This document shows, one piece after another, positions 4,133 through 62,402 of a stretch of DNA of 64,000 nt; within the stretch, counting starts at the first letter, position 1, and each line of letters starts with the position of its first letter. The translations under genes were made by a program, and so were the position numbers. Under the pieces are notes generated by a model that was not told the origin of the DNA, ran no database searches, and saw only the letters and a list, made by a program, of their open reading frames with translations. The DNA is from Aeromicrobium sp. 9AM (GTDB taxonomy: Bacteria > Actinomycetota > Actinomycetes > Propionibacteriales > Nocardioidaceae), in contig NZ_LR733304.1 in the NCBI RefSeq assembly GCF_902506105.1, forward strand, positions 434,001 through 498,000, read 5' to 3'.

Positions 4133-4912
4133 TCAGCGACCGGTGAACTTCGGTTCGCGTCGTTCGAGGCTGGCAGCGATGCCCTCGCGACTGTCGGTCG
4201 TCTCCCACAGCCAGGCCTGCTCGGTGGCTTCGCGGTCGAGCGTCGCGATGACGCGCTCCGCGAGATCGCCGCGCAACGTCTGTCGGATCGAGCGAACAGC
4301 GAGCGGCGCGAGATCGGCAAGCTCGCGGGCGTAGGCCAGCGCCACCGCTCGCTCGGCGCCGGGCTCGGCCAGACGGTCGACCAAGCCGAGCGAGTGGGCG
4401 CGCGCGCCGTCGACGCGCTCGGCCCCGACGAGCATGCGGCTCGCGGCCTGCGTCCCGATGATGCGCGGCAGCGACGCCGACAGGCCGAAGCCCTGGTGAA
4501 AGCCCAGGCGAGGGAAGTTGGCCCAAAAGCGCGTCTTCGAGGAAGCCACGCGGAAGTCGGCGGTGCAGGCCAGACCCAGGCCACCTCCCACGGCTGCCCC
4601 TTGGACCGCAGCGACCACGGGGAGAGGTGAGGCGAACAGTCGCGCTCCCTCGGCATACAGGCGGCGTGAGTCGACAGCCCGGTCTGCGCCCTCCGTGGGC
4701 GCGGCGAAGTTGGCCCCGGCGCAGAAGTGCTTGCCCTCCGACGCCAGAACGGCCGCTCGTGCCGTGCCGTCAGCGGCGAGGGCGTCGAGTGTGTCGGCAA
4801 TCGCGGCGATCAGCGGCCGGTCGAAGTAGTTGGCCGGCGGGCGCGCGATCTCAAGGAGAGCGACCGTGCCGTCGATCTGGACTCTCAAGCCGTCGAAGGC
4901 GGGGATGGTCAT
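4133..4912 (-). CDS. Enoyl-CoA hydratase/isomerase superfamily (crotonase-like), atypical active site
   Basis: A 259-residue crotonase-fold protein. Both oxyanion-hole segments are present, HFCAGANF (around residue 63) and VQGAAVGGGLGLACTADFRVAS (around 105-125). The two catalytic glutamates of true hydratases are missing: the first position is Gly in GGGLGLAC, and the Pro-Glu position reads ANFPRLG. The protein is therefore more likely an isomerase, a C-C hydrolase or another variant than a standard hydratase. It is the last gene of a four-gene leftward operon; its ATG overlaps the upstream dehydrogenase stop by four bases. Confidence 0.88.
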   Translation of the reverse strand: MTIPAFDGLRVQIDGTVALLEIARPPANYFDRPLIAAIADTLDALAADGTARAAVLASEGKHFCAGANFAAPTEGADRAVDSRRLYAEGARLFASPLPVVAAVQGAAVGGGLGLACTADFRVASSKTRFWANFPRLGFHQGFGLSASLPRIIGTQAASRMLVGAERVDGARAHSLGLVDRLAEPGAERAVALAYARELADLAPLAVRSIRQTLRGDLAERVIATLDREATEQAWLWETTDSREGIAASLERREPKFTGR

Positions 4913-5934
4913 GGCAGCAGCTCCGGTCGGTCGTGGTCGAGGATGAGACGAGCGAACGACGGCTCGTGGGCGGCGGTGTTGCCGAGTCGTCGCGACAGGT
5001 CGATCGGCTCCCCGAAGTCGCCGGTCCAGGTGTGCAGTCGACGGGTGTAACCCTGCAGCCTGTATTCCTGCGTCATGCCGATCGCACCGTGTGCCTGGTG
5101 GGCGGCCCTGGCCGCTACGAGCGCGTTCTCAGCAGTCACGAGCTGAGCTGCGGCGACGTCGACATCTTTCAGGTCGTCGTCGAGCGCCAGCCGATCAGCG
5201 ACCGCCGTGCACATGACAGCCATCTGCTCGATCTGGACGACATGAGCCTGCACGGCCTGGAACGCTCCGATCGGCTTGCCGAACTGGACCCGCTCGGAGA
5301 CGTAGCGGCGGGTCAGTGCGGAGATGGCCTGCAGTGCGCCTGCGACGAGCGCGACCCGCAGGGCGACCGCTCGTCGACGCACGTGGTCGGCGCTGGTGCC
5401 GGCGCCGATGGCGACCGCGGCCACCTGCGAGAACGTGAGTGTGTCGCGTGGCTGGCCGGCCAGGTCGACGCCGTGTCGGACCGTCGCGTCACGCGCCTTC
5501 ACCACGACGGTGCGGCCGTCGTCGGCTATGGCGACGACCAGGTCGACCGTCGATCCCCACGGGACGTCGGCAAGGATGCCACTGACCGTCTGGTCGTCGT
5601 GGATCGTCAGCGACGAGGCACCGACGGGGATGGAGATGCTGGCCATGGGCTGGAGGGGCAGGCCCGCCTCGACAAGGGCCCAGGCACCGGTGGTCGCCTC
5701 GACGACCGGGATGTCCGAGGCGTGACGCCCGGCGAGAGTGGCCAACGCCATGAGGTCGGCGAACGTCCCGCCGGATCCCTCGCGGTCCTCGGGCACACCG
5801 ACGAGGTGCAGTCCGAGGTCGGCGAACAGAGGCCACGGGGTCTCCGCGAGGGGGCCCGACTCGCCGATCGGGGCGTCGGTCGGCCACGCGGCGGCGAAGA
5901 AGTCCCCGAGGGCGGCGGTGAGGTCGGATGTCAT
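4909..5934 (-). CDS. Acyl-CoA dehydrogenase, probable beta-type subunit
   Basis: A 341-residue acyl-CoA dehydrogenase, short for the family. Recognisable are VGVPEDREGSGGTFADL in the N-terminal domain, the VQFGKPIGAFQAVQ motif around residue 230 and HQAHGAIGMTQEYRLQGYTRRLH in the C-terminal domain. The ATG giving MTSDLTAAL overlaps the stop of the preceding dehydrogenase gene by four bases. The pairing with the 5931-7061 gene fits an alpha2-beta2 dehydrogenase in which one subunit supplies the catalytic base and the other completes the FAD site. Substrate is unknown. Confidence 0.9.
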   Translation of the reverse strand: MTSDLTAALGDFFAAAWPTDAPIGESGPLAETPWPLFADLGLHLVGVPEDREGSGGTFADLMALATLAGRHASDIPVVEATTGAWALVEAGLPLQPMASISIPVGASSLTIHDDQTVSGILADVPWGSTVDLVVAIADDGRTVVVKARDATVRHGVDLAGQPRDTLTFSQVAAVAIGAGTSADHVRRRAVALRVALVAGALQAISALTRRYVSERVQFGKPIGAFQAVQAHVVQIEQMAVMCTAVADRLALDDDLKDVDVAAAQLVTAENALVAARAAHQAHGAIGMTQEYRLQGYTRRLHTWTGDFGEPIDLSRRLGNTAAHEPSFARLILDHDRPELLP

Positions 5935-11335: not shown

Positions 11336-12193
11336 ATGCACGTCGGTCTCATGATGTTCTCGACCGATCAGACCGTGGCGCCGGCACCGCTGGCGCGCAT
11401 GATCGCGGAACGCGGTTTCGAGGCGATGTTCCTGCCCGAGCACAGTCACATCCCGGTCACCCGGAGCACGCCGTATCCGCTGGGTGGCGACCTGCCGCCG
11501 GAGTACTACCGGACGATCGACATGTTCGTCGGCCTCGCCGCCGCCACCACGGCCGAGCCCGGCCTGACGATCGGCACTGGCATCACCGTCGTGCCGCAAC
11601 ACGACCCGATCTACCTGGCCAAGCAGGTCGCCAGTGTCGACCAGCTGTCCGGCGGCAAGCTGATCTTCGGCGTCGGCTACGGCTGGAACCAGGACGAGAT
11701 CGAGGACCACGGCGTGCCGTACAAGAAGCGCCGCACGGTGACCCGCGAGAAGATGCTTGCGATGCGCGAGCTGTGGACCCAAGAGGTCGCCTCGTTCCAC
11801 GGCGACTACGTCGACTTCGCGCCCACCTACCAATGGCCCAAGCCGGTCCAGGCCGGTGGACCGCCGGTCGTCATCGGCGGCCTGGCCGGACCGAAGCTGT
11901 TCGAGCACATCGCCGAGTACGCCCACGGCTGGGCACCCATCGGGACGCGCACGATCATCGAGGGCCTGCCCGCCCTGCAGAGGGCCTTCGAGGACGCCGG
12001 TCGCGATCCGGCCACGATCCGCCTGCACGCCTTCGATCCGCGTAGTGACGCGAGCCTGGTCGAGCGCTACGCGAGCCTCGGCGTCGAACGGCTCATCATC
12101 ACGGTGCCCCCGACCGGACGTGACGACCTCGCTCGGAAGCTGGACGCGATGATGCCGCTGAACGACCTAGTGCGGGGGGAAGAGCGCGGATGA
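11336..12193 (+). CDS. LLM class flavin/F420-dependent oxidoreductase
   Basis: A 285-residue TIM-barrel protein of the luciferase-like family, most like the F420-dependent branch. Markers are FEAMFLPEHSHIP near residue 28, TGITVVPQHDPIYLAKQVASVDQLS at about 80-105 and FGVGYGWNQDEIEDHG at about 112. Members use reduced F420 or FMN for hydride transfer or monooxygenation of pathway intermediates. AGGGAG lies seven to eight bases before the ATG. Its stop overlaps the next ATG by four bases, so it leads the operon with the second thiolase-fold/DUF35 pair and a CoA ligase. The cofactor is inferred from family resemblance. Confidence 0.9.
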   Translation: MHVGLMMFSTDQTVAPAPLARMIAERGFEAMFLPEHSHIPVTRSTPYPLGGDLPPEYYRTIDMFVGLAAATTAEPGLTIGTGITVVPQHDPIYLAKQVASVDQLSGGKLIFGVGYGWNQDEIEDHGVPYKKRRTVTREKMLAMRELWTQEVASFHGDYVDFAPTYQWPKPVQAGGPPVVIGGLAGPKLFEHIAEYAHGWAPIGTRTIIEGLPALQRAFEDAGRDPATIRLHAFDPRSDASLVERYASLGVERLIITVPPTGRDDLARKLDAMMPLNDLVRGEERG

Positions 12194-47699: not shown

Positions 47700-48461
47700 A
47701 TGTCCGAGAGTGTTCTTCCTGATCAGCAGCCCGGACTCGGGTTGGGCGATGGCTTCACCGCCAACAAGGCGGAGCAAACCGCTGACCTCGCCGGACAAAC
47801 CGTTGTCGTGGCCTTCGATGATGGACGTGCCGTGGCGTATGCGTTCATCGATCACGAGAACCTCACGATTGACGACGCTTCCGCCACACCCCTCCGCTAT
47901 GAGGCTCTGCGAGCAGGAGACGGCCTCTACATCGTGGCGATGCAGGAACCTGATCGGCCCGAAGCATCCACCGAGCTGGTGCTCGACCTGGAGTCAGGCG
48001 TCGCGTTCGCTCTGGATCAGACGATCGGTCCCAAGGCTTCGGGCGCACCCGCGGTGCTCCAGCGAGTGCGCAACGGAACGATAGATGGAGCTTTCGGCGC
48101 GAGTTTCGAGCGTACGGACGAGCTCATCGGCATCCGTGCGATGTGGGTCTACGGGCCAGGCAATGTGTACGAGCACCTCTATCTGAATCAGGAGTGGTAC
48201 GTCTGGCACTGCCTCGCTGGCGAGGAGTACCCCCTCGCCGACGCTGATCCCTACGCGGTCTACAAGGTCCGGGACCGTGTCTATCTCATGATCTTCTCCG
48301 AGAAGGTCCTCACGATGGGAGCGGCGATGCTCCTCGACTTCCATCACATGCGTTCGTACTGCGCTGCGCTGGGTTCAGAGAGCGACGACGCGCCACCAGC
48401 ACACTTCATGTTCGGTGCGCATGGGACGGTGCTCAGCACCACGACATACCCGCCGGTCTGA
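47700..48461 (+). CDS. MoaF-like protein
   Basis: A 253-residue protein matching the MoaF family over both halves: TVVVAFDDGRAVAYAFIDHEN in the N-terminal half, and NVYEHLYLNQEWYVWHCLAGEEYPLADADPYAVYKVRD then VYLMIFSEKV in the C-terminal half. The WHCLAGxE signature is highly characteristic. MoaF is a calycin-like protein first met in the moa operon of Klebsiella and often found next to catabolic enzymes; its ligand or reaction is unclear. It is followed after one base by an AraC gene, so the two are co-transcribed. Confidence 0.85.
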   Translation: MSESVLPDQQPGLGLGDGFTANKAEQTADLAGQTVVVAFDDGRAVAYAFIDHENLTIDDASATPLRYEALRAGDGLYIVAMQEPDRPEASTELVLDLESGVAFALDQTIGPKASGAPAVLQRVRNGTIDGAFGASFERTDELIGIRAMWVYGPGNVYEHLYLNQEWYVWHCLAGEEYPLADADPYAVYKVRDRVYLMIFSEKVLTMGAAMLLDFHHMRSYCAALGSESDDAPPAHFMFGAHGTVLSTTTYPPV

Positions 48462-51727: not shown

Positions 51728-53305
51728 GTGAACGTCGTTGATCCGGGTGCATCAGGAATGAGTCGCCGACAGGTCATCCAGCGTGGTGTGCTTGCCGGAG
51801 CGGTCCTGCTCGGAGGTTCCAGCCTCCTCGAGGCCTGCGGGCCGTCGAGCTCGTCCAACGGAAAGTTGTCGTCCGGCACCCCCCGCAAGGGCGGCATGTT
51901 GATCCACGGAATTCAAGGCGGAAGCAGCGGGGACTCGCTGGACCCACACCTCGTGCTGTCGGCAGCTGACTACGCCCGCTTCACGGGCCTCTACGAGACG
52001 TTGTGGACCGCATCCGCGAAGTACACGATCGACGAGTGGCTCATTGATTCGGCTGAGCCCAACGCCACGCTGGACGAGTGGACCGTTCGGCTCAAGCAGG
52101 GCATCGAGTTCCACCACGGCAAGACCGTGACCGCGGAGGACGTCCTCTTCAGCATCCAGCGGCTCCTCGATCCCAAGACCGGTGCGCTCTATGCGGGCCT
52201 GCTGTCGACGGTGGACCTGCGCAACTCCAAGAAGGTCGACGACCGAACCATCAGGTTCAAGCTCACCACGCCGCTGGTCACCTTTCCCGAGACGATGTCG
52301 CTTGCCGCCCCGATCATTCCCACCGACTTCAACGTCGCCAAGCCGGTTGGCACAGGCCCGTTCAAGCTCCAGAGCTTCACCCCCGGACGGCAGTCCGTCA
52401 TGGTCCGCAACGACAACTACTGGCGCAACAACCGGCCGTACGCAGACTCGATCACCCACATCGACTTCACCGACGAGACCGCACGAATCAATGCGCTGCA
52501 GGGCGGCCAGATCAACATCGCCGACTTCGTCTCCTTCCCCTTGATCCGATCCCTGTCGAAGGATTCGAAGCTCTCGATCAATCGCTCGGAGACGGCCAGT
52601 TTCATCCCGCTGAACATGCGCGTCGACCAGTCCCCGTACAGCGACGTACGAGTCCGCGAGGCGCTCAAGATCCTCATCGATCGCAAGGCCATGGTCGATG
52701 GTGCCTACCTGGGCGAGGGCCGAGTCGCGAACGACCTGTATGCACCCGTCGACCCGCTTTTCGACCACTCGTTGCCGCAGCGCGAGCAGGACCTCGACAA
52801 GGCGAAGTCCCTGCTCAAGGCCGCCGGGCACGAGAACCTGCAGATCGAGCTGACGACCAGCGACCTGGGATCGGGTGTTCTCAGCTCCACGGAGCTCTAC
52901 GCAGAGCAGGCCAAGGCGGCGGGCATCGACGTTAAGCTCAACAAGGTCGACACCGGGACGTTCTACGGCGACAACTACGGCGACTGGGGCTTCTCGCCCA
53001 ACCTCGCACCGCCCTACAACTACCTCGTGACAGCCCAGCAGTCCGACGGCCCGACCTCGACATCCAACCTGTCGCACTTCAAGGATCCCGAGTTCAGCTC
53101 GCTGTACGCCCAAGCGGTCGCCGAACCCGACGACGCCAAACGCAAGGACATCGCCGCCCGGATGCAGACGATCCAGTATGAGAAGGGCGGGACGATCATC
53201 TGGGGATACCAGAACTCCGTCGACTTCACCCGCGGTGTCGGCGGCATGGAGCCTGACGTCTCCGGCTTCTCGGCGTACCGCTCAGCAGACCTGTGGGTCG
53301 AGTAG
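51728..53305 (+). CDS. Dipeptide-type ABC transporter substrate-binding protein, Tat lipoprotein
   Basis: A 525-residue family 5 binding protein (DppA/OppA class). The N-terminus contains SRRQVIQRGVLAGAVLLGGS with SRRQV as a twin-arginine motif, followed by SLLEACG with the lipid-anchor Cys, so it is a Tat-exported lipoprotein. The mature part has the family sequence DEWTVRLKQGIEFHHGKTVTAEDVLFSIQRLLDP and GTGPFKLQSFTPG. GTG 51728 has AAAGGGAAA upstream; ATG 51758 (MSRRQ) would be the minimal start. It leads an operon with DppB/DppC permeases and a fused double ATPase, with catabolic genes placed between the transport genes. Confidence 0.92.
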   Translation: MNVVDPGASGMSRRQVIQRGVLAGAVLLGGSSLLEACGPSSSSNGKLSSGTPRKGGMLIHGIQGGSSGDSLDPHLVLSAADYARFTGLYETLWTASAKYTIDEWLIDSAEPNATLDEWTVRLKQGIEFHHGKTVTAEDVLFSIQRLLDPKTGALYAGLLSTVDLRNSKKVDDRTIRFKLTTPLVTFPETMSLAAPIIPTDFNVAKPVGTGPFKLQSFTPGRQSVMVRNDNYWRNNRPYADSITHIDFTDETARINALQGGQINIADFVSFPLIRSLSKDSKLSINRSETASFIPLNMRVDQSPYSDVRVREALKILIDRKAMVDGAYLGEGRVANDLYAPVDPLFDHSLPQREQDLDKAKSLLKAAGHENLQIELTTSDLGSGVLSSTELYAEQAKAAGIDVKLNKVDTGTFYGDNYGDWGFSPNLAPPYNYLVTAQQSDGPTSTSNLSHFKDPEFSSLYAQAVAEPDDAKRKDIAARMQTIQYEKGGTIIWGYQNSVDFTRGVGGMEPDVSGFSAYRSADLWVE

Positions 53306-53307
53306 AC

Positions 53308-54078
53308 GTGCCGGGGTCCAGGCCGGTCGCTCTCGTCACGGGCGGGGGGAGCGGGATCGGCCTCGCCAGCGCTGAGGCGCTCGCCAGGGCCGGACACGAT
53401 GTGACGATCGTGGGCCGGCGCCCGGCGGCGCTCGCGGAGGCCGCGGCGCAGGTCCGCGCGGCGGCGCGTGAAGCGACCGTCCTGGTGGCCCCGGCCGATG
53501 TCGGCGCGCGCGACGAGGTCGAGGGCGCTTTCGCTGCGACGCTCTCGACGTTCGGGCGACTGGATGTGTTCGTCGGCGCGGCAGCGGCTCTCCACACCGC
53601 CAACTTCCGTGATCTGACGATCGAGGGCTGGGACGAGATGGTCGATGTCGTGCTCCGAGGATCTGCGATGTGCGCAATGGCCGCCACACGTCATTTCGTC
53701 CAGGCAGGCGGCGGTCGGGTGATCTTCATCGGCTCGATCAGCGCCAGTGTCTCGGACTTCGAGCTGGCCCACTACTGCGCGGCAAAGGCGGGGGTGCACG
53801 CCTTGGCACGATCCATGGCCGTAGACCTCGCGTCGGCGAACATCTGGGTGAACGTCGTGGCGCCAGGGTGGGTCAACACCCCGATGATCGGCGAGTATGT
53901 CGACTCGCTCGAGGCGGGCGTCCTGCTGGCCATGAACCCACAGGGGCGGGCCGCGCGACCAGCCGAGATTGCCGATGTGGTCAGGTTTCTCGCCGTTGAC
54001 GCACCCCCGTTCCTGACCGGCAGCACGATCACGGTCGACGGTGGACAGACCGTCATGAACCACTTGCTCCCCGGATGA
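53308..54078 (+). CDS. Short-chain dehydrogenase/reductase
   Basis: A 256-residue SDR. VALVTGGGSGIGLASAEALAR is the nucleotide-binding start; the usual NNAG is changed to GAAAA (VGAAAALHTANF, about 84); the catalytic set is IGSISASVSDFELAHYCAAKAG (Ser, Tyr, Lys) near 140-160. The GTG at 53308 directly follows the binding-protein stop; a GTG fifteen bases upstream is possible. It is placed inside the transporter operon and probably oxidises or reduces the imported compound. Confidence 0.9.
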   Translation: MPGSRPVALVTGGGSGIGLASAEALARAGHDVTIVGRRPAALAEAAAQVRAAAREATVLVAPADVGARDEVEGAFAATLSTFGRLDVFVGAAAALHTANFRDLTIEGWDEMVDVVLRGSAMCAMAATRHFVQAGGGRVIFIGSISASVSDFELAHYCAAKAGVHALARSMAVDLASANIWVNVVAPGWVNTPMIGEYVDSLEAGVLLAMNPQGRAARPAEIADVVRFLAVDAPPFLTGSTITVDGGQTVMNHLLPG

Positions 54079-54103: not shown

Positions 54104-54385
54104 ATGACGAGGTGTGCCGAGATCGTCAGAATACGACCGCATGCAGGAAAGCGTGCAGAGCTGTTGGCCCTGCGACCGCGGTTCACCTCGGAGTTCAGAG
54201 AACGAGCGACGGGCTTCCAGCGGCACAGCCTCTACTCGCTCGAGGGTGGAGACTTCCTGGACATTGCGCTGTGGAGCGCGGCCTCGGATCTCGACGCTGT
54301 CGATGAGACGCAGGGCGTGCTGGTGGAGTGGTACGACCTGGTCGAGATCGTCTCCATGGAGCTCGCGGACGTGCTCGATGAGTGA
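54104..54385 (+). CDS. Small ABM/dimeric alpha-beta-barrel-like protein
   Basis: A 93-residue protein starting CAEIVRIRPHAGKRAELLAL and containing FQRHSLYSLEGGDFLDIALW, then VDETQGVLVEWYDLVEIVSME. The beta-alpha-beta pattern and size fit antibiotic-biosynthesis-monooxygenase or related dimeric barrel proteins, but no decisive motif is seen. AAGGAGGG lies eight bases before the ATG. It overlaps the first SMP-30-like gene by eight bases. The family call is tentative. Confidence 0.65.
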   Translation: MTRCAEIVRIRPHAGKRAELLALRPRFTSEFRERATGFQRHSLYSLEGGDFLDIALWSAASDLDAVDETQGVLVEWYDLVEIVSMELADVLDE

Positions 54386-55292
54386 CGGTGCTCCCGTGGC
54401 GTTGATCGCCGGTGTGGGACACCCGCAGGGCCCTGACGTCACCGACGACGGGAGCATCGTCTACGCCGAGACCTACCTTTCACGGATCATGATCTTCAAC
54501 CAGGAGACCGGCCCTCGTGTGCTGGCCGACTGCGGGGGCGGTCCGAACGCGGTCCTCGTGGGCCGCGACGGACTCGTCTACTTCACCCAGAACGGCGGGC
54601 AGGCGGGGGAGTGGCGCTCCGACGTGCAGCGAGTTCCTGCCGTCGAGGTGCTGGACCCGGGCACCGGCGACATCACGACCTTGTGCACCGACGTCGATGG
54701 TCATCCGCTGCTGGCCCCGCACGACCTGGCCTGGGGGCCGGACGGACGGCTCTATGTCACCGACTCCGGGACGTGGGCGCCGGGCGGCAGAACCGAGCCC
54801 GGCCGGATTTTCGCGATCGATGAAGACGGTCACGCCCAGACGATCGCCGAGCCCGGTCACGTCTTTCCGAGTGGCATCGCCGTCGAGCCAGACTGCTCGG
54901 TCCTGTGGGCCGAGGCCTACACCTCACGCGTGTTTCGACTCCGGCCCGATGCGGCGCCGCAGCTCGTCACCACTCTCCCCGACGGACACGTCCCCGAGTC
55001 GATCGCGCTGGACCATCGGGGTCATCTCTGGATCGCGGCGCTGGAAGCGCACGGCTTCGATGTCGTCGCGCCAAATGGTGGATCGCGCGAGTTCGTCTGG
55101 ACCGGCGGGCTGCCGCTCAACGGCGTGCTCGCTCGCGGCCACCTCTATGTCACGGATCTCGGAGACTACGACGACGCGATGCCGGACCCGCAGATCGTCG
55201 GGCGCATCCTCCAGCTCGCCGTCGGCGTGGAAGCCGCCCCGCAAACCCGCGGTCGCATTGCTCCGTCCCTCAGCTCACCGACGAAAGCCTGA
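54378..55292 (+). CDS. SMP-30/gluconolactonase-like beta-propeller protein A, altered metal site
   Basis: A 304-residue six-bladed propeller protein related to SMP-30 lactonases, which open lactone rings using a divalent metal. The family phrase WGPDGRLYVTDSGTWAPGGR and the GIAVEPD blade are clear. Positions expected to hold metal or substrate ligands differ from the family: Gln17 (GHPQGPD, normally Glu), His115 (APHDLAW, normally Asn) and Ser165 (FPSG, normally Asn). A different chemistry or loss of metal is possible. Overlap with the upstream small gene and close spacing to the isochorismatase gene place it in the operon. Confidence 0.85.
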   Translation: MSDGAPVALIAGVGHPQGPDVTDDGSIVYAETYLSRIMIFNQETGPRVLADCGGGPNAVLVGRDGLVYFTQNGGQAGEWRSDVQRVPAVEVLDPGTGDITTLCTDVDGHPLLAPHDLAWGPDGRLYVTDSGTWAPGGRTEPGRIFAIDEDGHAQTIAEPGHVFPSGIAVEPDCSVLWAEAYTSRVFRLRPDAAPQLVTTLPDGHVPESIALDHRGHLWIAALEAHGFDVVAPNGGSREFVWTGGLPLNGVLARGHLYVTDLGDYDDAMPDPQIVGRILQLAVGVEAAPQTRGRIAPSLSSPTKA

Positions 55293-55298
55293 TCTCAC

Positions 55299-55895
55299 AT
55301 GTCTCTCGCACCACTCGACGCCTCGCGCACGGCCCTCCTGATCCTCGACATGCACGCCTGCATCGCGGGTCCAGACGGAAATGCCGCAACGCACGCCGCG
55401 GAGCAGAATCTCGTGCCGAACATCGTGAGGCTGCGGGACGCCGCGGACGCGACCGGAGTGCCAGTCGTGTTCGTGCAGCACCGGCGTCCGCACGGGATCA
55501 GGCCGTACGGCCAGATCAGCTCGCTGTTCCGTGAGATCGCGGACGATCCGGATCTGCAGCCCGGTTCTGCGGGTCTCGCGATGCTCCCGGAGCTCCAGGT
55601 GGAGGAAGGCGACATCGTGATCGAGAAGCAGCGCGCCAGCGCCTTCACGGGCACCGAGCTCGACATCACCCTGCGGGCCATGGGGATCGACACGATCCTC
55701 CTGACCGGCGCGTGGACGAACCTGTCCGTCGAGTCGACCGCACGGTATGCGACCGACATCGGATATGCCGCGGTCGTCGCCAGCGACGGCACCGCGTCGG
55801 AGAGCGCGCCATGGCACGAGATCGCGCTCACCGGTGGACTCAGCGCCGTGGCCTCGGTCGCGACTGTCTCGGAGATCGTCGCCGCGCTCGGTTGA
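55299..55895 (+). CDS. Isochorismatase-fold hydrolase with Ser in place of the catalytic Cys
   Basis: A 198-residue isochorismatase-fold protein. TALLILDMHACIAGPDGN supplies the catalytic Asp17, and GDIVIEKQRASAFTGTEL the Lys110. At the nucleophile position, where cysteine hydrolases have CVE, the sequence reads LTGAWTNLSVESTARYATD, so residue 143 is Ser. Family members hydrolyse amides, N-carbamoyl groups or ethers. The Cys-to-Ser change suggests either an altered nucleophile or a non-covalent mechanism as in isochorismatase. It starts six bases after the SMP-30 gene. Confidence 0.88.
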   Translation: MSLAPLDASRTALLILDMHACIAGPDGNAATHAAEQNLVPNIVRLRDAADATGVPVVFVQHRRPHGIRPYGQISSLFREIADDPDLQPGSAGLAMLPELQVEEGDIVIEKQRASAFTGTELDITLRAMGIDTILLTGAWTNLSVESTARYATDIGYAAVVASDGTASESAPWHEIALTGGLSAVASVATVSEIVAALG

Positions 55896-55917
55896 GCCGA
55901 CGAAGAAGGGAAATCGG

Positions 55918-56952
55918 ATGACCATCAGTGAGTCCGCGGGCCTGATCACTGTTCCAGAGGTGGCCGGCATCGGCGCAGGCGCCAGGCATCGCGAAAGCGT
56001 ATGGATCCTCAAGCGGCTCGGATCCGGCGTGCTTGTCCTGCTCGCCGTCTCGGTCGTGGTGTTCGCCGCGACGCAGGCTCTGCCGAGTGATCCGGCCCAG
56101 GCCATGCTCGGTCGCCAGGCCACGCCGGAGCTGCTCGACGCGCTTCGCCAAAAGCTCGGCCTCGACCAAAGCCTGCCGGTTCAGTACGTCCACTGGTTTT
56201 CAGGCCTGCTCCACGGTGACCTCGGCACGTCATTGGCGTCGCAGCAGCCGGTCACCGGCGTCCTCGGACCGCGGCTGCTCAACTCACTCGCCCTGCTCGC
56301 CGGTGCCGCCCTTATCATGATCCCGTTCTCGATCGGGGCCGGAGTGTTCCTTGCCGCCCGCCGCGACCGATCGCTGGACCGCACGGTCAACGCCGGGCTG
56401 ATGGCTGTCATGGCCCTGCCGGACTTCGTGGTCGGCACGATCTTTCTCCTCGTGTTCGCCACCACGGTCATGCCGGTGTTGCCCGCGGTGTCCCTCGTGC
56501 CTCCAGGAGCCAGCGGATTCTCGCATCCGAGGGAGCTCGTGCTCCCGGTCCTCACGGCAGTCACGATCACCGCGCCGTTCCTGATCCGGCAGGTCCGAGC
56601 CTCGATGATCGAGACGCTTGAGTCCGAGCACATCGCCCAGGCGCGTCTTCGCGGAATCGCCGAGAAGCGGATCATCTGGCGACATGCCCTGCCCAACGCG
56701 CTCGTGCCACTGGTCCAGGGGAGCGCCTTGATGCTCAGCTATCTCCTCGGTGGCGTCGTGGTCATCGAGTACGTGTTCAACTACCCGGGCCTCGGCGGGA
56801 TGCTGAACGATGCGGTCGTCTATCGGGACCTGCCTGTCCTGCAGGCCGTCTCGCTGACCTTTGCCGCAGGCGTCGTCGCCTTCAACCTGATCGCCGACCT
56901 TCTCACGATCATGCTCACTCCCAGGCTGCGCACGTCTGGAGGCGCCCGATGA
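55918..56952 (+). CDS. Dipeptide-type ABC transporter permease (DppB-like)
   Basis: A 344-residue permease with six predicted membrane helices. The RLGSGVLVLLAVSVVVFAATQ helix and the PSDPAQAMLGRQATPELLDALRQKLGLDQSLPVQYVHWF loop are the DppB signature. The ATPase-contact loop is EHIAQARLRGIAEKRIIWRHALPNALVP (about 240). The ATG has GAAGAAGGGAA upstream. The N-terminus has a 25-residue hydrophilic extension. Its stop overlaps the DppC-like gene start. Confidence 0.93.
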   Translation: MTISESAGLITVPEVAGIGAGARHRESVWILKRLGSGVLVLLAVSVVVFAATQALPSDPAQAMLGRQATPELLDALRQKLGLDQSLPVQYVHWFSGLLHGDLGTSLASQQPVTGVLGPRLLNSLALLAGAALIMIPFSIGAGVFLAARRDRSLDRTVNAGLMAVMALPDFVVGTIFLLVFATTVMPVLPAVSLVPPGASGFSHPRELVLPVLTAVTITAPFLIRQVRASMIETLESEHIAQARLRGIAEKRIIWRHALPNALVPLVQGSALMLSYLLGGVVVIEYVFNYPGLGGMLNDAVVYRDLPVLQAVSLTFAAGVVAFNLIADLLTIMLTPRLRTSGGAR

Positions 56953-57833
56953 GCAGTGCCGGCACAGGTGGGACGACCACCAGGCGAGTCGCGGTGACTC
57001 GCTCGGAGCATCGTGGGACCGCACGTCACGTCTGGATCGGGATCGGCGCCACCGCGGTGATGCTGGCGCTTGCCCTTCTCGGGCCCCTGTTCGCGCCACA
57101 TCATCCGTCCGATGTCATCGCTCCGCCCTACTCGAGTCCCAGCGGTCAGTCCTTGTTGGGAACGGACTACCTCGGGCAGGACACCTTCTCGCGCATCCTG
57201 TGGGGCGGTTCGTCGGTCGTCTGGATGTCCGTGACGGCGACTGCCATCGCCATCGTGATCGGCGCGATCCTGGGACTCATCTCGGCGTACATCGGAGGGA
57301 AGCTCGACGCGCTCGTGCTGTGGCTCAACGACATCCTGCTGGCCTTTCCGTTGATCGTCTTCGTCATCTTGTTCCTCTCGATGCTGGGGCGGAACCCGCT
57401 TCTGCTCGTGGTGCTCGTGGCGTTCGGCTGGCTGCCGAGTGTCGTCCGACTCACGAGGAGCGTCGCGCTGGAGGCGATCCATCAGGAGTACGTCGCGTCG
57501 GCCGAGATCATCGGCACCCCGAGATGGCGCATCCTCGTGGGAGAGATCCTGCCCAACATCACGACGCCGTTGATTGTGCAGACCGGCGCACTGCTGACGT
57601 GGTCGATCGGGGTCATCGCCGGACTCAGCTTCCTGGGGTTCGGGATCCAGCCACCGAACGCCGACTGGGGCCTGATGGTCAACGAGAACCGCAGCGGGCT
57701 GATGATCCTGCCGTGGGGGACGATCGGACCGATCGTCTGCATCGCCGCCTTCGCGCTCGCGACCAATACACTTGCCGATGCCCTGGGCAGACTGCTAGGG
57801 GCTCGCCACACCGGTCACAAGGCGGATCGATGA
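56949..57833 (+). CDS. Dipeptide-type ABC transporter permease (DppC-like)
   Basis: A 294-residue permease. LLGTDYLGQDTFSRILWGGS (about 63-82) is the conserved periplasmic start of DppC proteins, and VASAEIIGTPRWRILVGEILPNITTPL (about 180-206) the ATPase-contact loop. LSFLGFGIQPPNADWGLMVNENRS follows. Overlaps of four bases connect it to the DppB-like gene and the second SMP-30-like gene. Confidence 0.93.
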   Translation: MSSAGTGGTTTRRVAVTRSEHRGTARHVWIGIGATAVMLALALLGPLFAPHHPSDVIAPPYSSPSGQSLLGTDYLGQDTFSRILWGGSSVVWMSVTATAIAIVIGAILGLISAYIGGKLDALVLWLNDILLAFPLIVFVILFLSMLGRNPLLLVVLVAFGWLPSVVRLTRSVALEAIHQEYVASAEIIGTPRWRILVGEILPNITTPLIVQTGALLTWSIGVIAGLSFLGFGIQPPNADWGLMVNENRSGLMILPWGTIGPIVCIAAFALATNTLADALGRLLGARHTGHKADR

Positions 57834-58759
57834 GCGCCGCCGTGGATCCACGCCTGGACGTCTCGGTCGGCGACGCCGAGATACTCGCCGCCCCACTCAT
57901 GCATCCCGAAGGCCCGGACCTGCGGGCCGACGGCGGACTGCTGTTCGTCGAGGCCGACAGCGGCCGGATCTGTGTCAGCTATCCCGGCCGCGGCGTTGCG
58001 ACGTTCGCGTCGACCGGAGGAAGCCCGTACGGATGCACGCTCGGCAGTGACGACTGCGTCTACGTGACGCAGAGCGGAAACACCGACCCAGCGGTGGGCG
58101 TTCCACGGCATGTCCCGCCCTCGATCCAGCGCGTCTCTCCCGACGGTGCCGACGTGGAGATCCTTGCGACGCACGCTGATGGCCGAGCCTTCGGTGCACC
58201 GAATGATCTCGCCTGGGGGTCTGACGGGCGCCTGCTGTTCACCGACTCAGGGCAATGGGATCCCGATGATCGAACGGATCCCGGTTTCATCCACGCGCTC
58301 CGACCCGACGGGCACGCCGAGGTCGTGCTCGAGCTGGGTCCGGTCTTCCCGAACGGGATAGCGGTCGAAGCAGACGGGAGCATCATCTGGCTCGAGTCCT
58401 ACACCCGCGTCGTGGGTCGGTTGCGGCGAAACGGCACGACGGAGGTGGTTGCCGTCCTCCCCGAAGGACATATCCCGGAAGGTGTCAAGGTTGCCCTCGA
58501 CGGCTCTCTCTGGATCACCAACTTCGAGGCGGGCGGCGTCGACGTCATCGAGCGGGACGGCACTCCGCGCGAGGTCATCCACGTTGGCGGGGTTCCGGTC
58601 AACTGCCTGTTCGGGGACGGCTGGCTCTTCGTCGCTGATTTCGGGCACCCGAGTGACCCGTTGGATGAGGACTCCTTCAGACCGGGCAGCATCCGGCGGA
58701 TTCGGGTCACCACCAGGGGAATGCCGCTGAACCGCGGATCCATCGACAGGAAGGCATGA
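57830..58759 (+). CDS. SMP-30/gluconolactonase-like protein B, conserved metal ligands
   Basis: A 309-residue beta-propeller protein of the SMP-30 family. In contrast to its two paralogues, it keeps Glu27 in MHPEGPD, Asn125 in APNDLAW and Asn175 in FPNGIAVE. The fourth ligand region reads IPEG (Glu217) instead of the usual PDG. The WGSDGRLLFTDSGQWDPDDRTDPG phrase is shared with the other two. It is likely to be an active metal-dependent lactonase or related hydrolase. ATGA overlaps join it to both neighbours. Confidence 0.88.
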   Translation: MSAAVDPRLDVSVGDAEILAAPLMHPEGPDLRADGGLLFVEADSGRICVSYPGRGVATFASTGGSPYGCTLGSDDCVYVTQSGNTDPAVGVPRHVPPSIQRVSPDGADVEILATHADGRAFGAPNDLAWGSDGRLLFTDSGQWDPDDRTDPGFIHALRPDGHAEVVLELGPVFPNGIAVEADGSIIWLESYTRVVGRLRRNGTTEVVAVLPEGHIPEGVKVALDGSLWITNFEAGGVDVIERDGTPREVIHVGGVPVNCLFGDGWLFVADFGHPSDPLDEDSFRPGSIRRIRVTTRGMPLNRGSIDRKA

Positions 58760-59649
58760 CAGTGACATTCGATCCCGAGGTACTCGTCAACGACTTCGGC
58801 CAGATGCCGCAGGGAGCCGATGTGTTGCCCGACGGCAGGTTCGTGTCCGTCGATGTGCACACCGGCGAAGTCATCGCCTTCTCGCCCGACACCGGTCGCC
58901 GAGAGGTCATCGCTCGGACATCGAGTGGCCCGATCGGCGTGACCCTCGGCGATGACGGCGCCTTGTATCTCGCCCATACCGGAGGCCGGCTCGGGGACTT
59001 CTGGGAAGCCGATGATGCGATCGCGCCCTGCATCCAACGGCTGGAGGTGGGATCGGACCGACCGGTGACGATCCTGACCGAGGTGGGGGGTTCGCCGTTG
59101 GTCGCCCCGCACGACATCGCATGGGGAGCCGACGGTCGCCTCTACTTCACCGATTCGCACATCTGGCAGTGGGACCCTCTGCTCCGCACCGGCGCCGGCC
59201 GAATCGTCGCGATCTCACCCGATGGCAGCGCCGATGTCGTGGTCGAGACCGGCGTGACCTTCCCGTGCGGGATCGTCGGCGAGCCGGACGGCTCGATCGT
59301 GTGGACTGAGTCGTACGCAGACCGTGTTCTCCGGCGCCGGCCGTCCGGATCGATCGAGGTGATCGCGACGCTGCCCCCCGGTCACACCCCCCACGGGGTG
59401 CGGATCGGCGCGGACGGAGCCTTGTGGGTGGCGTCGTTCGGCTCCTCGACGATCGACGAGATCGCCCCGGATGGCAGTTCCGTCACGTTCCACGACGTTC
59501 CCGGCTACCCGATGAATTTTGCCTTCCTCGGCTCGGACCTGATCGTGGCTGCCTTCAAGGATGCGCCGGACGACGACATGGACGGGCTGCTGTTTCGTGT
59601 CGGCGTCGGCACGCCAGGTGACGTACTGCTGCGCGGAAGAGTCGGCTAG
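58756..59649 (+). CDS. SMP-30/gluconolactonase-like protein C, altered metal site
   Basis: A 297-residue beta-propeller protein. Gln19 (MPQGAD), His119 (APHDIAW) and Cys171 (FPCGIV) replace the predicted Glu, Asn and Asn ligands, and the PDG ligand position reads PHG (His213). The first two changes are identical to those in protein A. The propeller phrases WGADGRLYFTDSHIWQWDPLLR and GADGALWVASFGSS are otherwise typical. It immediately precedes the ATPase gene, whose GTG shares one base with its stop. Confidence 0.85.
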   Translation: MTVTFDPEVLVNDFGQMPQGADVLPDGRFVSVDVHTGEVIAFSPDTGRREVIARTSSGPIGVTLGDDGALYLAHTGGRLGDFWEADDAIAPCIQRLEVGSDRPVTILTEVGGSPLVAPHDIAWGADGRLYFTDSHIWQWDPLLRTGAGRIVAISPDGSADVVVETGVTFPCGIVGEPDGSIVWTESYADRVLRRRPSGSIEVIATLPPGHTPHGVRIGADGALWVASFGSSTIDEIAPDGSSVTFHDVPGYPMNFAFLGSDLIVAAFKDAPDDDMDGLLFRVGVGTPGDVLLRGRVG

Positions 59650-61295
59650 TGCAGATCCAGGCCGAGAGCGACCCGGTCGAGAGCACCAGTGACAGCGATC
59701 CGGTCGTCAGGGTCACCGGACTGAGGGTCGAGCTCTCTTCAGGTCGAGAGATCGTCGACGGCATCAGCTTCGACCTTCGACGCGGCCAGATCCTGTGCCT
59801 GGTGGGTGAGTCGGGCTCGGGCAAGACGACCGTGAGCACCGCGCTGCTGGCCTATGCGAGGTCAGGTGCGCACATCGTCGCCGGGACCGTCGAGCTGCAC
59901 GGCGAGGACATCCTCATCGCATCGGCGGGGCGGCGCCGCGACCTCCGTGGCGAGACCGTGGCCTACGTCGCGCAGGATCCCAACTCCGCGTTCAATCCGG
60001 CTCTGCGGATCGCGACCCAGATGACCGAAGCCGTGCTGGCCCATGGCTGGGACAAGGCGGCCGCCAGGGCACGTATCGCCGAGGTGCTCGTCGAGGTCGG
60101 TCTGCCGGCATCCAAGGACTTCATCGAGCGGTATCCCCACCAGCTGTCCGGCGGGCAGCTCCAGAGGGTGGGGATCGCGATGGCTCTGATGCTGCGGCCG
60201 GACGTGCTGGTGCTCGACGAGCCGACGACGGGACTGGACGTGACGACCCAGTCCCGGGTGCTGGTTCTCGTGCGCGACCTGTGCTCGCGCAACGGGATCG
60301 GTGCCCTCTACGTGACGCATGATCTGGCGGTAGTTGCTGACATCGCTGACAGGGTCATCGTGATGCTCGAGGGCCGCGTCGTCGAGGAGGCCACGGCAGC
60401 GGAATTGTTCACCCGCCCCCAGCACGAGTACACCCAGCAATTGCTGCAAGCGGTCCCCGATGTCGCGGCCGCTGATCTGTCCGGGCCGACGCCGGACTCT
60501 GATCGTCGTTCGACCATCCTGGCGGTCGAGGGCCTGAACGCGGCCTACCGGCACGAGCGGGTTCTCCATGACATCTCGTTCGAGGTGACCCAAGGCGAGT
60601 GCCTCGCGATCGTAGGCGAGTCCGGATCCGGCAAGAGCACGCTTTCGCGATGCCTGATCGGGTTGCACCCGGAGCAGGACGGGGCGATCACGTGGGACCA
60701 GGCGCCGCTCGACCCGCGTTCGCGCCGGAGGAGCGCCGCCGTCCGCAAGGACATCCAGTACATCTTCCAGTCGCCGCACAACTCACTCAATCCTCGGCGG
60801 ACTGTCGGGGAGAGTATCGGACGGGCGCACGCGGTCGTGGTCGGCGGCAGCGCTGCACCACGTCGCGCGGCGGTCGCCGAGGTACTCGAACGGGTCGGTC
60901 TGCGACCGGACATGGCAGGGTTGTATCCCCGAGGGCTCTCCGGTGGGGAGCGACAGCGTGTGGCCATCGCCCGCGCACTGGTCTGTCGGCCGAAGCTCCT
61001 CATCTGCGACGAGATCACGTCGGCCCTCGACGTCATCGTGCAGGCGTCGATCCTCGACCTGCTTCGCGAGCTTCAGCGCGCCGATGGTCTCTCGATGATC
61101 TTCGTGACGCACAACCTGGCTGTGGTGAGGAACTTGGCAGACCGCGTCATGGTCATGAATGCGGGCAACGTCGTGGAGATCGGCGACATGGACGCCGTGC
61201 TCTCGAACCCGTCCGACTCCTACTCCAGGGAGCTCGTCGACAACACGCTCTCGATGGCAACGCTGAGAGGCGAGCGCTGGGTCGCGAGCGGATAG
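59649..61295 (+). CDS. Fused double ABC ATPase (DppD-DppF type)
   Basis: A 548-residue protein with two complete ABC domains. Domain 1 has Walker A GESGSGKT (53-60), LSGGQLQRVGIAMAL and VLVLDEPTTGLDVTTQ. Domain 2, from about residue 295, has Walker A GESGSGKS (from 323), LSGGERQRVAIARAL and LLICDEITSALDVIVQ. In the second Walker B the usual Pro after Glu is Ile. Fused DppDF ATPases occur in actinobacterial peptide and nickel importers. It ends the operon; a 138-base gap precedes the second AraC gene. Confidence 0.93.
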   Translation: MQIQAESDPVESTSDSDPVVRVTGLRVELSSGREIVDGISFDLRRGQILCLVGESGSGKTTVSTALLAYARSGAHIVAGTVELHGEDILIASAGRRRDLRGETVAYVAQDPNSAFNPALRIATQMTEAVLAHGWDKAAARARIAEVLVEVGLPASKDFIERYPHQLSGGQLQRVGIAMALMLRPDVLVLDEPTTGLDVTTQSRVLVLVRDLCSRNGIGALYVTHDLAVVADIADRVIVMLEGRVVEEATAAELFTRPQHEYTQQLLQAVPDVAAADLSGPTPDSDRRSTILAVEGLNAAYRHERVLHDISFEVTQGECLAIVGESGSGKSTLSRCLIGLHPEQDGAITWDQAPLDPRSRRRSAAVRKDIQYIFQSPHNSLNPRRTVGESIGRAHAVVVGGSAAPRRAAVAEVLERVGLRPDMAGLYPRGLSGGERQRVAIARALVCRPKLLICDEITSALDVIVQASILDLLRELQRADGLSMIFVTHNLAVVRNLADRVMVMNAGNVVEIGDMDAVLSNPSDSYSRELVDNTLSMATLRGERWVASG

Positions 61296-61433: not shown

Positions 61434-62402
61434 TTGTTAGGCGGTCGTGTCATCGAGACTTCGCCCCTGCGGCATGACTTCGCCTCGTTCCGCCAGGCGG
61501 TCGCCAAGTCGTTCGTCCCGCTGGACGTTCATTGCAAGAATCCTCGCTCGTTCCAAGGGCAGGTGTCCGAGACGGTTGTCGACGACATCCACATCTCGCA
61601 GATCCGAGCGTCGGCCCATCGAGTCGAGCGGACGCCCGACCTGATCGCACACGCGGACCACAAGTCGTTCAAGCTCAGTCTGCTGGTCGCCGGCAGCGGC
61701 CTTCTCGTGCAGGACGGCCGGGAGACCGTCTTGCGGGCAGGTGACCTGGCCCTCTACGACACCCGGCGGCCCTACACGCTGGCGTTCGACGACGTCTTCC
61801 ACTCTGTCGTGTTCATGTTCAGACACGAATCGATCGACTTGCCGGCCGATGTCCTGTCGGAGTTGACGGCCGTCCGGTTCTCACGCGATCAGGGCGTGGG
61901 GTCGGCGATCATCCCGTTCCTGACCCAGATGGCGTGTCAGCCCAGCCAGCTGACTGGGCCCGCCGGTCCGAGACTGGTGCACAACGCGCTTGACCTGGTG
62001 ACGACGATGTTCTCAGCTGAGCTCGACCTCGAGCGCACGCGGAGCAACTCGCATCACTCCCTGATGCAGAAGATCCGGGCTCACATCGAAGCGAACCTGG
62101 CCGAGCCAGAGCTCGGGCCGAGCACCATTGCTGCGGCTCACTTCATCTCCACCCGACACCTGCATGGACTGTTCCAGGATCAGGGCATCACCGTTTCGTC
62201 GTGGATCAGGTCCAGGCGTCTTGAGCACTGCCGCCGCGATCTGGTCGATCCGGTCCAGGTGCATCGCTCGGTCAGCAACATCGCGTCGAGATGGGGGTTC
62301 GTCGACGCAGCCCACTTCTCGAAGGCGTTCAAGAACATGTACGGGACGTCGCCGCGCGACTTTCGCGCACGCGGACAGGCCCCCGAAGCAGAGGTCAGCT
62401 GA
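61434..62402 (+). CDS. AraC family regulator (AraC_binding_2 type)
   Basis: A regulator of about 322 residues, paralogous to the 48.5-49.4 kb AraC protein; both share the RVERTP/AVERTP, VQDGRE, PGDFALYDT/AGDLALYDT and PY/PF blocks. The C-terminal helix-turn-helix pair is ELGPSSIAAAHFISTRHLHGLFQ-like and SNIASRWGFVDAAHFSKAFKNMYGTSPRDF. A TTG is the only usable start because a stop lies nine bases upstream in frame; the real N-terminus is therefore uncertain. It follows the ABC/SMP-30 operon and is the likely local activator. Confidence 0.9.
   Translation: MLGGRVIETSPLRHDFASFRQAVAKSFVPLDVHCKNPRSFQGQVSETVVDDIHISQIRASAHRVERTPDLIAHADHKSFKLSLLVAGSGLLVQDGRETVLRAGDLALYDTRRPYTLAFDDVFHSVVFMFRHESIDLPADVLSELTAVRFSRDQGVGSAIIPFLTQMACQPSQLTGPAGPRLVHNALDLVTTMFSAELDLERTRSNSHHSLMQKIRAHIEANLAEPELGPSTIAAAHFISTRHLHGLFQDQGITVSSWIRSRRLEHCRRDLVDPVQVHRSVSNIASRWGFVDAAHFSKAFKNMYGTSPRDFRARGQAPEAEVS

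Follow-up and report, generated by a model that had tools for sequence, protein, structure and literature searches.

SMP-30/gluconolactonase, DFPase, Drp35 and XC5397 carry Glu, Asn, Asn and Asp around a divalent metal (PMC3551927, PMC12362111, PMC4215206). In DrSOD the metal is held by four residues, Glu200, Asn290, Asn339 and Asp381 (PMC12362111), and the SMP-30 counterparts are Glu18, Asn103, Asn154 and Asp204, of which Asn103 contacts substrate, not the metal (PMC3551927). Ligand loss is already known in this superfamily: strictosidine synthase is metal-independent (PMC4215206), and TGW6, an indole-3-acetic acid (IAA)-glucose hydrolase with Glu, Asn, Asn and Asn at the site, gave no Ca2+ signal and is a precedent for metal-free hydrolysis (PMC10958001). 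We describe here three further members, proteins A, B and C, encoded among the genes of an ATP-binding cassette (ABC) importer in Aeromicrobium sp. 9AM, in a stretch of 64,000 nucleotides (the window; NCBI RefSeq assembly GCF_902506105.1, contig NZ_LR733304.1, positions 434,001 to 498,000 of the forward strand). All three belong to the Pfam family SGL, as do the metal-dependent enzymes named above; A and C also share the predicted fold and the site register of these enzymes but keep none of the four ligands, A having a similar Glu at the Asp place.

The closest solved fold to A and C is the RPA3624 lactonase of Rhodopseudomonas palustris (PDB 8djf, 7ris, 7riz), which carries the Glu/Asn/Asn/Asp motif that A and C are without. 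Strictosidine synthase and TGW6 resemble what is proposed below for A and C in that the metal is lost on the same fold, but TGW6 keeps Glu/Asn/Asn with Asn for Asp, unlike A and C, and the accessible portions of the sources report no Ser/Cys-His set for either enzyme. By sequence and by fold, the solved structures nearest to A and C are other members of the superfamily.

The four metal-ligand positions

The open reading frames of the three proteins lie at the starts named in an earlier note on this DNA, which was made from the sequence alone and called all three SMP-30-like:

54378..55292, + strand: protein A, SMP-30-like predicted six-bladed propeller, Gln17/His115/Ser165/Glu207 on blades 1/3/4/5 (QHSE); PF08450 55.2 bits; predicted local distance difference test score (pLDDT) 92.6; signature kept in 3/3
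57830..58759, + strand: protein B, SMP-30-like propeller, Glu27/Asn125/Asn175/Glu217 on the same blades (ENNE); PF08450 58.7 bits; ENNE kept in 3/3
58756..59649, + strand: protein C, SMP-30-like propeller, Gln19/His119/Cys171/His213 on the same blades (QHCH); PF08450 64.5 bits; pLDDT 93.7; signature kept in 3/3

The family assignment is borne out, each protein scoring above the 26.3-bit cut-off of Pfam SGL (PF08450); in the 4.19 Mb genome there are four SGL matches, and the three above the cut-off are exactly A, B and C. Their mutual identity is about 40%.

Ligand columns were assigned to blades 1, 3, 4 and 5 from sequence order. Glu/Asn/Asn/Asp (ENND) stands at these four columns in 115 of the 115 rows of the comparison alignment; A and C lack this ligand set of the metal-dependent N6P enzymes, and B has three of the four residues, with Glu for Asp. 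The earlier note had named three ligand places and read Gln, His and Ser or Cys there in A and C. Those three places are real, and family alignments together with the strand register described below put the residues at the metal positions, as an alignment check set beforehand had asked; overlooked was the fourth ligand of the superfamily, on blade 5 (SMP-30 Asp204), which is Glu217 in B, Glu207 in A and His213 in C against Asp in 115/115 rows. B, which had served as the intact reference, does keep Glu27, Asn125 and Asn175 but has this fourth ligand altered. Likewise, the ligand loss described as the same in A and C is alike on blades 1 and 3, with Ser or Cys on blade 4, but differs on blade 5 (Glu against His).

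The 115 rows consist of 97 SGL proteins and 18 relatives from a pattern scan of 84,980 species. The SGL proteins came from a sample of 120 genomes of one phylum, with matches in 36 of the 120 and 97 of 118 places used in this first set; reading frames were picked by a profile built from ENND rows, which could favour ENND. The 21 remaining places, in which the match did not span the profile, comprised 10 ENND, 8 Glu/Asp/Asn/Asp (EDND), one DNNG, one STND (a short frame) and one cut fragment with only the Glu readable. EDND is a natural blade-3 variant found in eight distant SGL matches (L184, L186, L187, L190, L193-L195, L197) that look like strictosidine-synthase-like proteins, and single-position ligand variants exist in the wider SGL family. 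A search of 175 and 173 genomes with an A/C profile gave 11 non-duplicate matches (10 ENND, one ENNA), for a total of 147 rows (97 + 21 + 18 + 11), among which L034 and L150 are the same protein and L115 and L116 share a 50-residue stretch. L031 and L033 (both ENND) were excluded from the later comparison set, and four weak matches were read but left uncounted (L043 and L044, ENND; L042, incomplete; L045, NHL-like and badly aligned, AHFR or DHDR). In none of the 147 rows did a readable column show Gln (blade 1), His (blade 3), Ser or Cys (blade 4) or Glu or His (blade 5).

In view of these counts it is improbable that A and C are ordinary metal-dependent lactonases in which Gln, His, Ser and Cys act as weaker Ca2+ or Mg2+ ligands. 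A single-ligand change can be tolerated, since PON1 E53Q and D269N retain measurable activity (PMC6100192), and relatives do vary at one ligand, as the 8 of 118 SGL places with Glu/Asp/Asn/Asp attest. In A and C, however, all four places are altered, the acidic blade-1 ligand is lost in both, and the replacements are those that appear in none of the comparison rows.

AlphaFold2 models of A and C have 24 strands each and are confidently predicted six-bladed beta-propellers with SMP-30-type enzymes as best matches. The best solved match of C is the RPA3624 lactonase (Z 36.7, root-mean-square deviation 2.2, 277 aligned, 27% identity), followed by DFPase, SMP-30 and Drp35 entries, and that of A is the same lactonase (Foldseek E 4.2e-18). 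Every ligand-place residue is second in its strand, both in A (strands 16-21, 114-119, 164-169 and 206-212) and in C (18-23, 118-123, 170-175 and 212-218); in propellers of the family these strands line the channel. The identical register of the four residues in both models supports the alignment and rules out misalignment of the site residues. In the phmmer pairing of A with 7ris all four fall on ligand columns, and that of C with 8djf is off by one at Cys171, which the family alignments put on the Asn column.

Conservation across the 115 rows reaches 90% or more in ten columns, of which the four ligand columns, and no others, are at 100%. A and C each alter all four of them plus one of the six other conserved columns, B alters one ligand only, and the chance that 5 random changed columns among 10 would cover all four ligands is 0.024. 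Two more positions share the register, and the comparison set varies at both: on blade 2, A has Asn57, B has Tyr67 and C has Ile60; on blade 6, A and B have Asn, and the orthologues of C have Asn or His. C also has a conserved His74 and His246, rare in that set.

Two further family assignments were considered. C passes the virginiamycin B lyase family PF24684 (59.7 bits against a cut-off of 50, residues 52-249), with A (31.3) and B (39.6) below it. Virginiamycin B lyase is a seven-bladed propeller, and this identity was rejected for C, as the 24 strands of the model make six blades of four and the best matches are SMP-30-type; the score may nevertheless lead automatic annotation to mislabel the protein. 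On the strictosidine-synthase side, A and C show 'SSL_N' matches that are short, about 20 residues only. The condensation carried out by strictosidine synthase uses a catalytic Glu.

Conservation and origin of the altered sites

The same cassette, in the same order from binding protein to fused ATPase, is present in Mesorhizobium sp. CU3 (L022) and on near-identical plasmid loci of Rhizobium sp. CB3060, NXC24 and CB3171 (L046, L055, L056). The Rhizobium A, B and C proteins are equal except for one residue in C and were counted as one, so that the distinct sets are those of the window, Mesorhizobium and Rhizobium. One-to-one orthologues are 56 and 57% (A), 58 and 61% (B) and 60 and 60% (C) identical to the window proteins, and gene-by-gene identity between the window and rhizobial cassettes is 44-75%. 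QHSE in A, ENNE in B and QHCH in C are each unchanged in 3/3 distinct orthologues.

A changed function rather than decay had been suggested in the earlier note, and this is upheld: QHSE and QHCH are identical in 3/3 orthologues despite about 40-45% differing sites between the window and rhizobia. The ratio of nonsynonymous to synonymous substitution rates (dN/dS) between the two rhizobial copies is 0.095 for A, 0.088 for B and 0.100 for C; between the window and rhizobia it is 0.15-0.33 for A, 0.16-0.25 for B and 0.17-0.36 for C, values that are rough at a dS of about 1 to 2.8. Very probably, A and C have been retained and their site has been rebuilt under selection. Decay at random, with the copies redundant, would fit the absence of the original ligand set from two of the three copies, and the window-Mesorhizobium dN/dS is slightly higher in A (0.33) and C (0.36) than in B (0.25), at saturated dS. 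The kept signatures in orthologues from two phyla, the intact frames, the other conserved positions still in place and the rhizobial dN/dS of about 0.1 nonetheless lead us to reject decay as highly improbable.

Phylogenetic trees separate the A, B and C orthologues into three well-supported clades (99-100). A and C group together with support 87/88 when the ligand columns are included; without those columns and the longest branch the A+C group drops out of the best tree, is recovered in 24% of bootstraps and has an approximately unbiased test value (p-AU) of 0.31, and the other pairings are likewise unrejected (A+B, p-AU 0.39; C+B, p-AU 0.14). A clade of A/C-type sites, a check proposed earlier, was thus recovered in the first analysis and not in the second, and the description of the ligand changes as parallel is not borne out, the trees leaving room for a single shared origin. 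Gln and His may have arisen once in an ancestor of A and C or twice in parallel, both being compatible with the trees.

The importer cassette and its distribution

The cassette genes of the window encode, in order, the binding protein, a short-chain dehydrogenase/reductase (SDR), a 93-residue protein, A, the isochorismatase-like hydrolase, two successive permeases, B, C and the fused ATPase, after which comes the AraC regulator. The features other than A, B and C are as follows:

51758..53305, + strand: family-5 extracellular solute-binding protein, importer component; PF00496 252 bits; rhizobial identity 74-75%; start codon chosen by eye
53293..54078, + strand: SDR; PF13561 169 bits; rhizobial identity 58-59%
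54104..54385, + strand: conserved protein of 93 residues between the SDR and A; rhizobial counterpart in the same place, 47-53% identity
55299..55895, + strand: isochorismatase-like hydrolase carrying Ser where Cys is usual; PF00857 136 bits; rhizobial identity 67-68%
55918..56952, + strand: NikB/DppB-type permease; PF00528 and PF19300; rhizobial identity 66-68%; start codon chosen by eye
56949..57833, + strand: NikC/DppC-type permease; NCBIfam Opp1C 185.6 bits (below the cut-off of 350); rhizobial identity 69-70%
59649..61295, + strand: fused double ABC-transporter ATPase of NikDE/DppDF type; PF00005 215.8 bits in two stretches; rhizobial identity 56-58%
61434..62402, + strand: AraC-family regulator directly 3' of the cassette; PF14525 and PF12833; putative regulatory role, from position
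47700..48461, + strand: MoaF-like protein, upstream of and apart from the cassette; PF17409 120 bits, PF10703 68.6 bits; 44-46% identity to rhizobial copies

Several cassette genes overlap by a few bases, B with the preceding permease and B with C by four (58756-58759), as in a single transcription unit. The binding protein is a probable secreted lipoprotein, judged by eye, and A, B and C, in which no N-terminal signal peptide is evident by eye, are probably cytoplasmic. Guanine-plus-cytosine content of the cassette region is 65-67%, like that of the remaining window. A Pfam search at E 0.001 matched no family to the 93-residue protein. In rhizobia the MoaF-like gene stands right after the ATPase gene (L022:14863-15657); here it lies about 3 kb upstream of the cassette, beside an AraC-type regulator.

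Aligned to solved relatives, the isochorismatase-like hydrolase reads TNLSVEST against TNVCVRST in 3hb7, so that Ser replaces Cys, and this Ser is kept in all three distinct cassettes (window 55299-55895; L022:8902-9498; L046 about 11532-12128). The protein thereby departs from its cysteine-hydrolase relatives as A and C depart from theirs. On the NXC24 plasmid the gene is frameshifted (L055 about 4567-5122), a real loss or a sequencing error, with A, B and C intact.

Three paralogues interleaved with importer genes had been called unusual, and they are: within the searches, the arrangement was found only in this genome, at 1 of 25 loci from the 84,980-species scan and on the three Rhizobium plasmids. 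That scan used two short peptide patterns and the large genome samples were scored on a limited set of candidates from each genome, which makes the negatives strong, not absolute. Searches of 340 other genomes of the family yielded no relative of A at an E-value of 1e-25 or below, and those of 390 others of the order none of B; an A/B/C profile matched nothing at 1e-40 in 395 other genomes of the phylum, and C had no relative at 1e-60 in 345 others around the Mesorhizobium genome. Within the genus there are weak matches only, in 7 of 48 other genomes (best 2.0e-13). A profile of A/C orthologues found one strong same-class relative (L168/L177, in the 1.3 Mb genome G1575; E 1.1e-93, 312 bits), yet this propeller is ENND, with an SDR gene directly after it.

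With the cassette on an actinobacterial contig and copies in rhizobia, it was probably exchanged between phyla, in one direction or the other. WhiB is an actinobacterial mark, and assembly contamination is unlikely because the contig that bears the cassette (C7) carries 5 of the 6 WhiB matches of the genome; among 14 control genomes the WhiB search matched only Corynebacterium glutamicum.

Single-copy relatives (L021, L023-L038; Hyphomicrobiales, Rhodospirillales, Acidisoma, Actinomycetota and Chloroflexota) resemble B, with up to 49% identity, but differ from the window cassette in having one propeller per locus and Glu/Asn/Asn/Asp throughout. The two Chloroflexota loci (L037:1221-7340, L038:6411-12634) hold a simpler version of the cassette, in which a single Glu/Asn/Asn/Asp propeller gene lies between the genes for the binding protein and two permeases, all of the same importer type, with two ATPase matches as well; this suggests that the link between propeller and importer predates the triplication. 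An SDR gene lies directly upstream in 11 of 15 single-copy relatives (L021, L023-L036); these upstream SDRs hint at lactones of oxidised sugars or hydroxy acids as substrate, though they give no firm clue.

Possible chemistry of proteins A and C

In the mechanism that we favour, the binding protein, the two permeases and the fused ATPase would import a compound that cytoplasmic enzymes then process. Enzymes like the SDR, the isochorismatase-like hydrolase and B carry out oxidation, cleavage and the opening of lactones or esters, and they give the cassette an enzymatic context. B is most likely a divalent-metal lactonase or esterase of the ordinary kind, its ENNE site being slightly altered. 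The channel pocket of A and C would have been rebuilt with loss of Ca2+, leaving both proteins metal-independent, with Ser165 of A or Cys171 of C as nucleophile and His115 or His119 as base, and with Glu207 or His213 together with Gln17 or Gln19 supporting charge relay and oxyanion binding. A and C could then act as hydrolases or acyl transferases on other bonds of the imported compound. What we observe are the four residues with their register and conservation, the cassette kept across genomes and the predicted fold; the loss of Ca2+, the role of the nucleophile, the order of the steps and the substrate we infer.

The replacement residues in A and C are all chemically capable, with Ser in A against Cys in C on blade 4 and a conserved His on blade 3. 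Ser and Cys are the classic interchangeable nucleophile pair, and a metal-free nucleophile site is favoured because of this exchange beside the fixed His. The full mechanism, with A and C as metal-free nucleophile hydrolases or acyl transferases, is a tentative proposal that may well prove wrong; a little more doubtful still is the version in which both are covalent-nucleophile enzymes, with Ser-His-Glu-Gln in A and Cys-His-His-Gln in C, so that three sister propellers in one operon would have three chemistries.

Several points weigh against a nucleophile site. The pairing of Ser or Cys with His comes from sequence places and predicted-strand register, and by blade order the blade-3 His and the blade-5 Glu or His should lie across the ring, so that a textbook triad is not assured. 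No member of the superfamily is known to us to use a covalent nucleophile, and a literature search covering titles and abstract openings found none. The Cys and two His of C suit a soft metal at least as naturally, and the observations do not tell catalysis from ligand binding.

A site rebuilt for another metal is accordingly a close rival, mainly for C, although we hold it rather unlikely overall. On this reading blades 1, 3, 4 and 5 of C would form a ring around a soft or transition metal (Zn, Cu, Ni or Fe), and the site of A might take Zn, Mn or Fe; the two proteins would then be metal carriers, redox enzymes or metal-dependent hydrolases. Soft metals are typically bound by sets such as His2-Cys-Gln, to which C adds the conserved His74 and His246, whereas the Ser and Gln of A would make a poor metal site. 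On the same fold, Caulobacter xylonolactonase binds Fe2+ specifically (PMC8529709). The fused ATPase scores above the NCBIfam NikD and NikE cut-offs, but these scores sum two domains and also pass the dipeptide and staphylopine importer cut-offs, and so carry little information on nickel; the score of the binding protein falls well short of both NikA cut-offs (148 against 600 bits and 102 against 393 bits), and the NikC-type permease is also below its cut-off. A copper-type site in C that uses Met253 was rejected, Met253 being outside the ligand register.

Alternatively, A and C could be non-catalytic and bind the imported compound or its product as sensors, carriers or partners of B. Many six-bladed propellers are binders only, the ancestral ligand set is lost, and A, B and C are tightly coupled in the operon, where B overlaps the permease and C overlaps B. 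This is unlikely, however, as the replacements are reactive and invariant in 3/3 distinct orthologues, unlike the varied changes of a retired active site.

A literature search, mostly of titles and abstract openings and with few subscription journals covered, turned up neither Gln/His/Ser/Glu nor Gln/His/Cys/His sites, no description of the cassette, and nothing relevant on the MoaF context, on paralogues in nickel-type importer operons or on odd ligands. A superfamily review calls the route to both metal-dependent hydrolases and metal-independent strictosidine synthase a mystery (PMC4215206). With ENNE, QHSE and QHCH sister propellers in one operon, and orthologues in two phyla, possible steps become testable residue by residue. 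A and C are proteins that annotation by family only would name calcium lactonases, and their reactive residues, replaced and then conserved, suggest new chemistry on an old enzyme frame.

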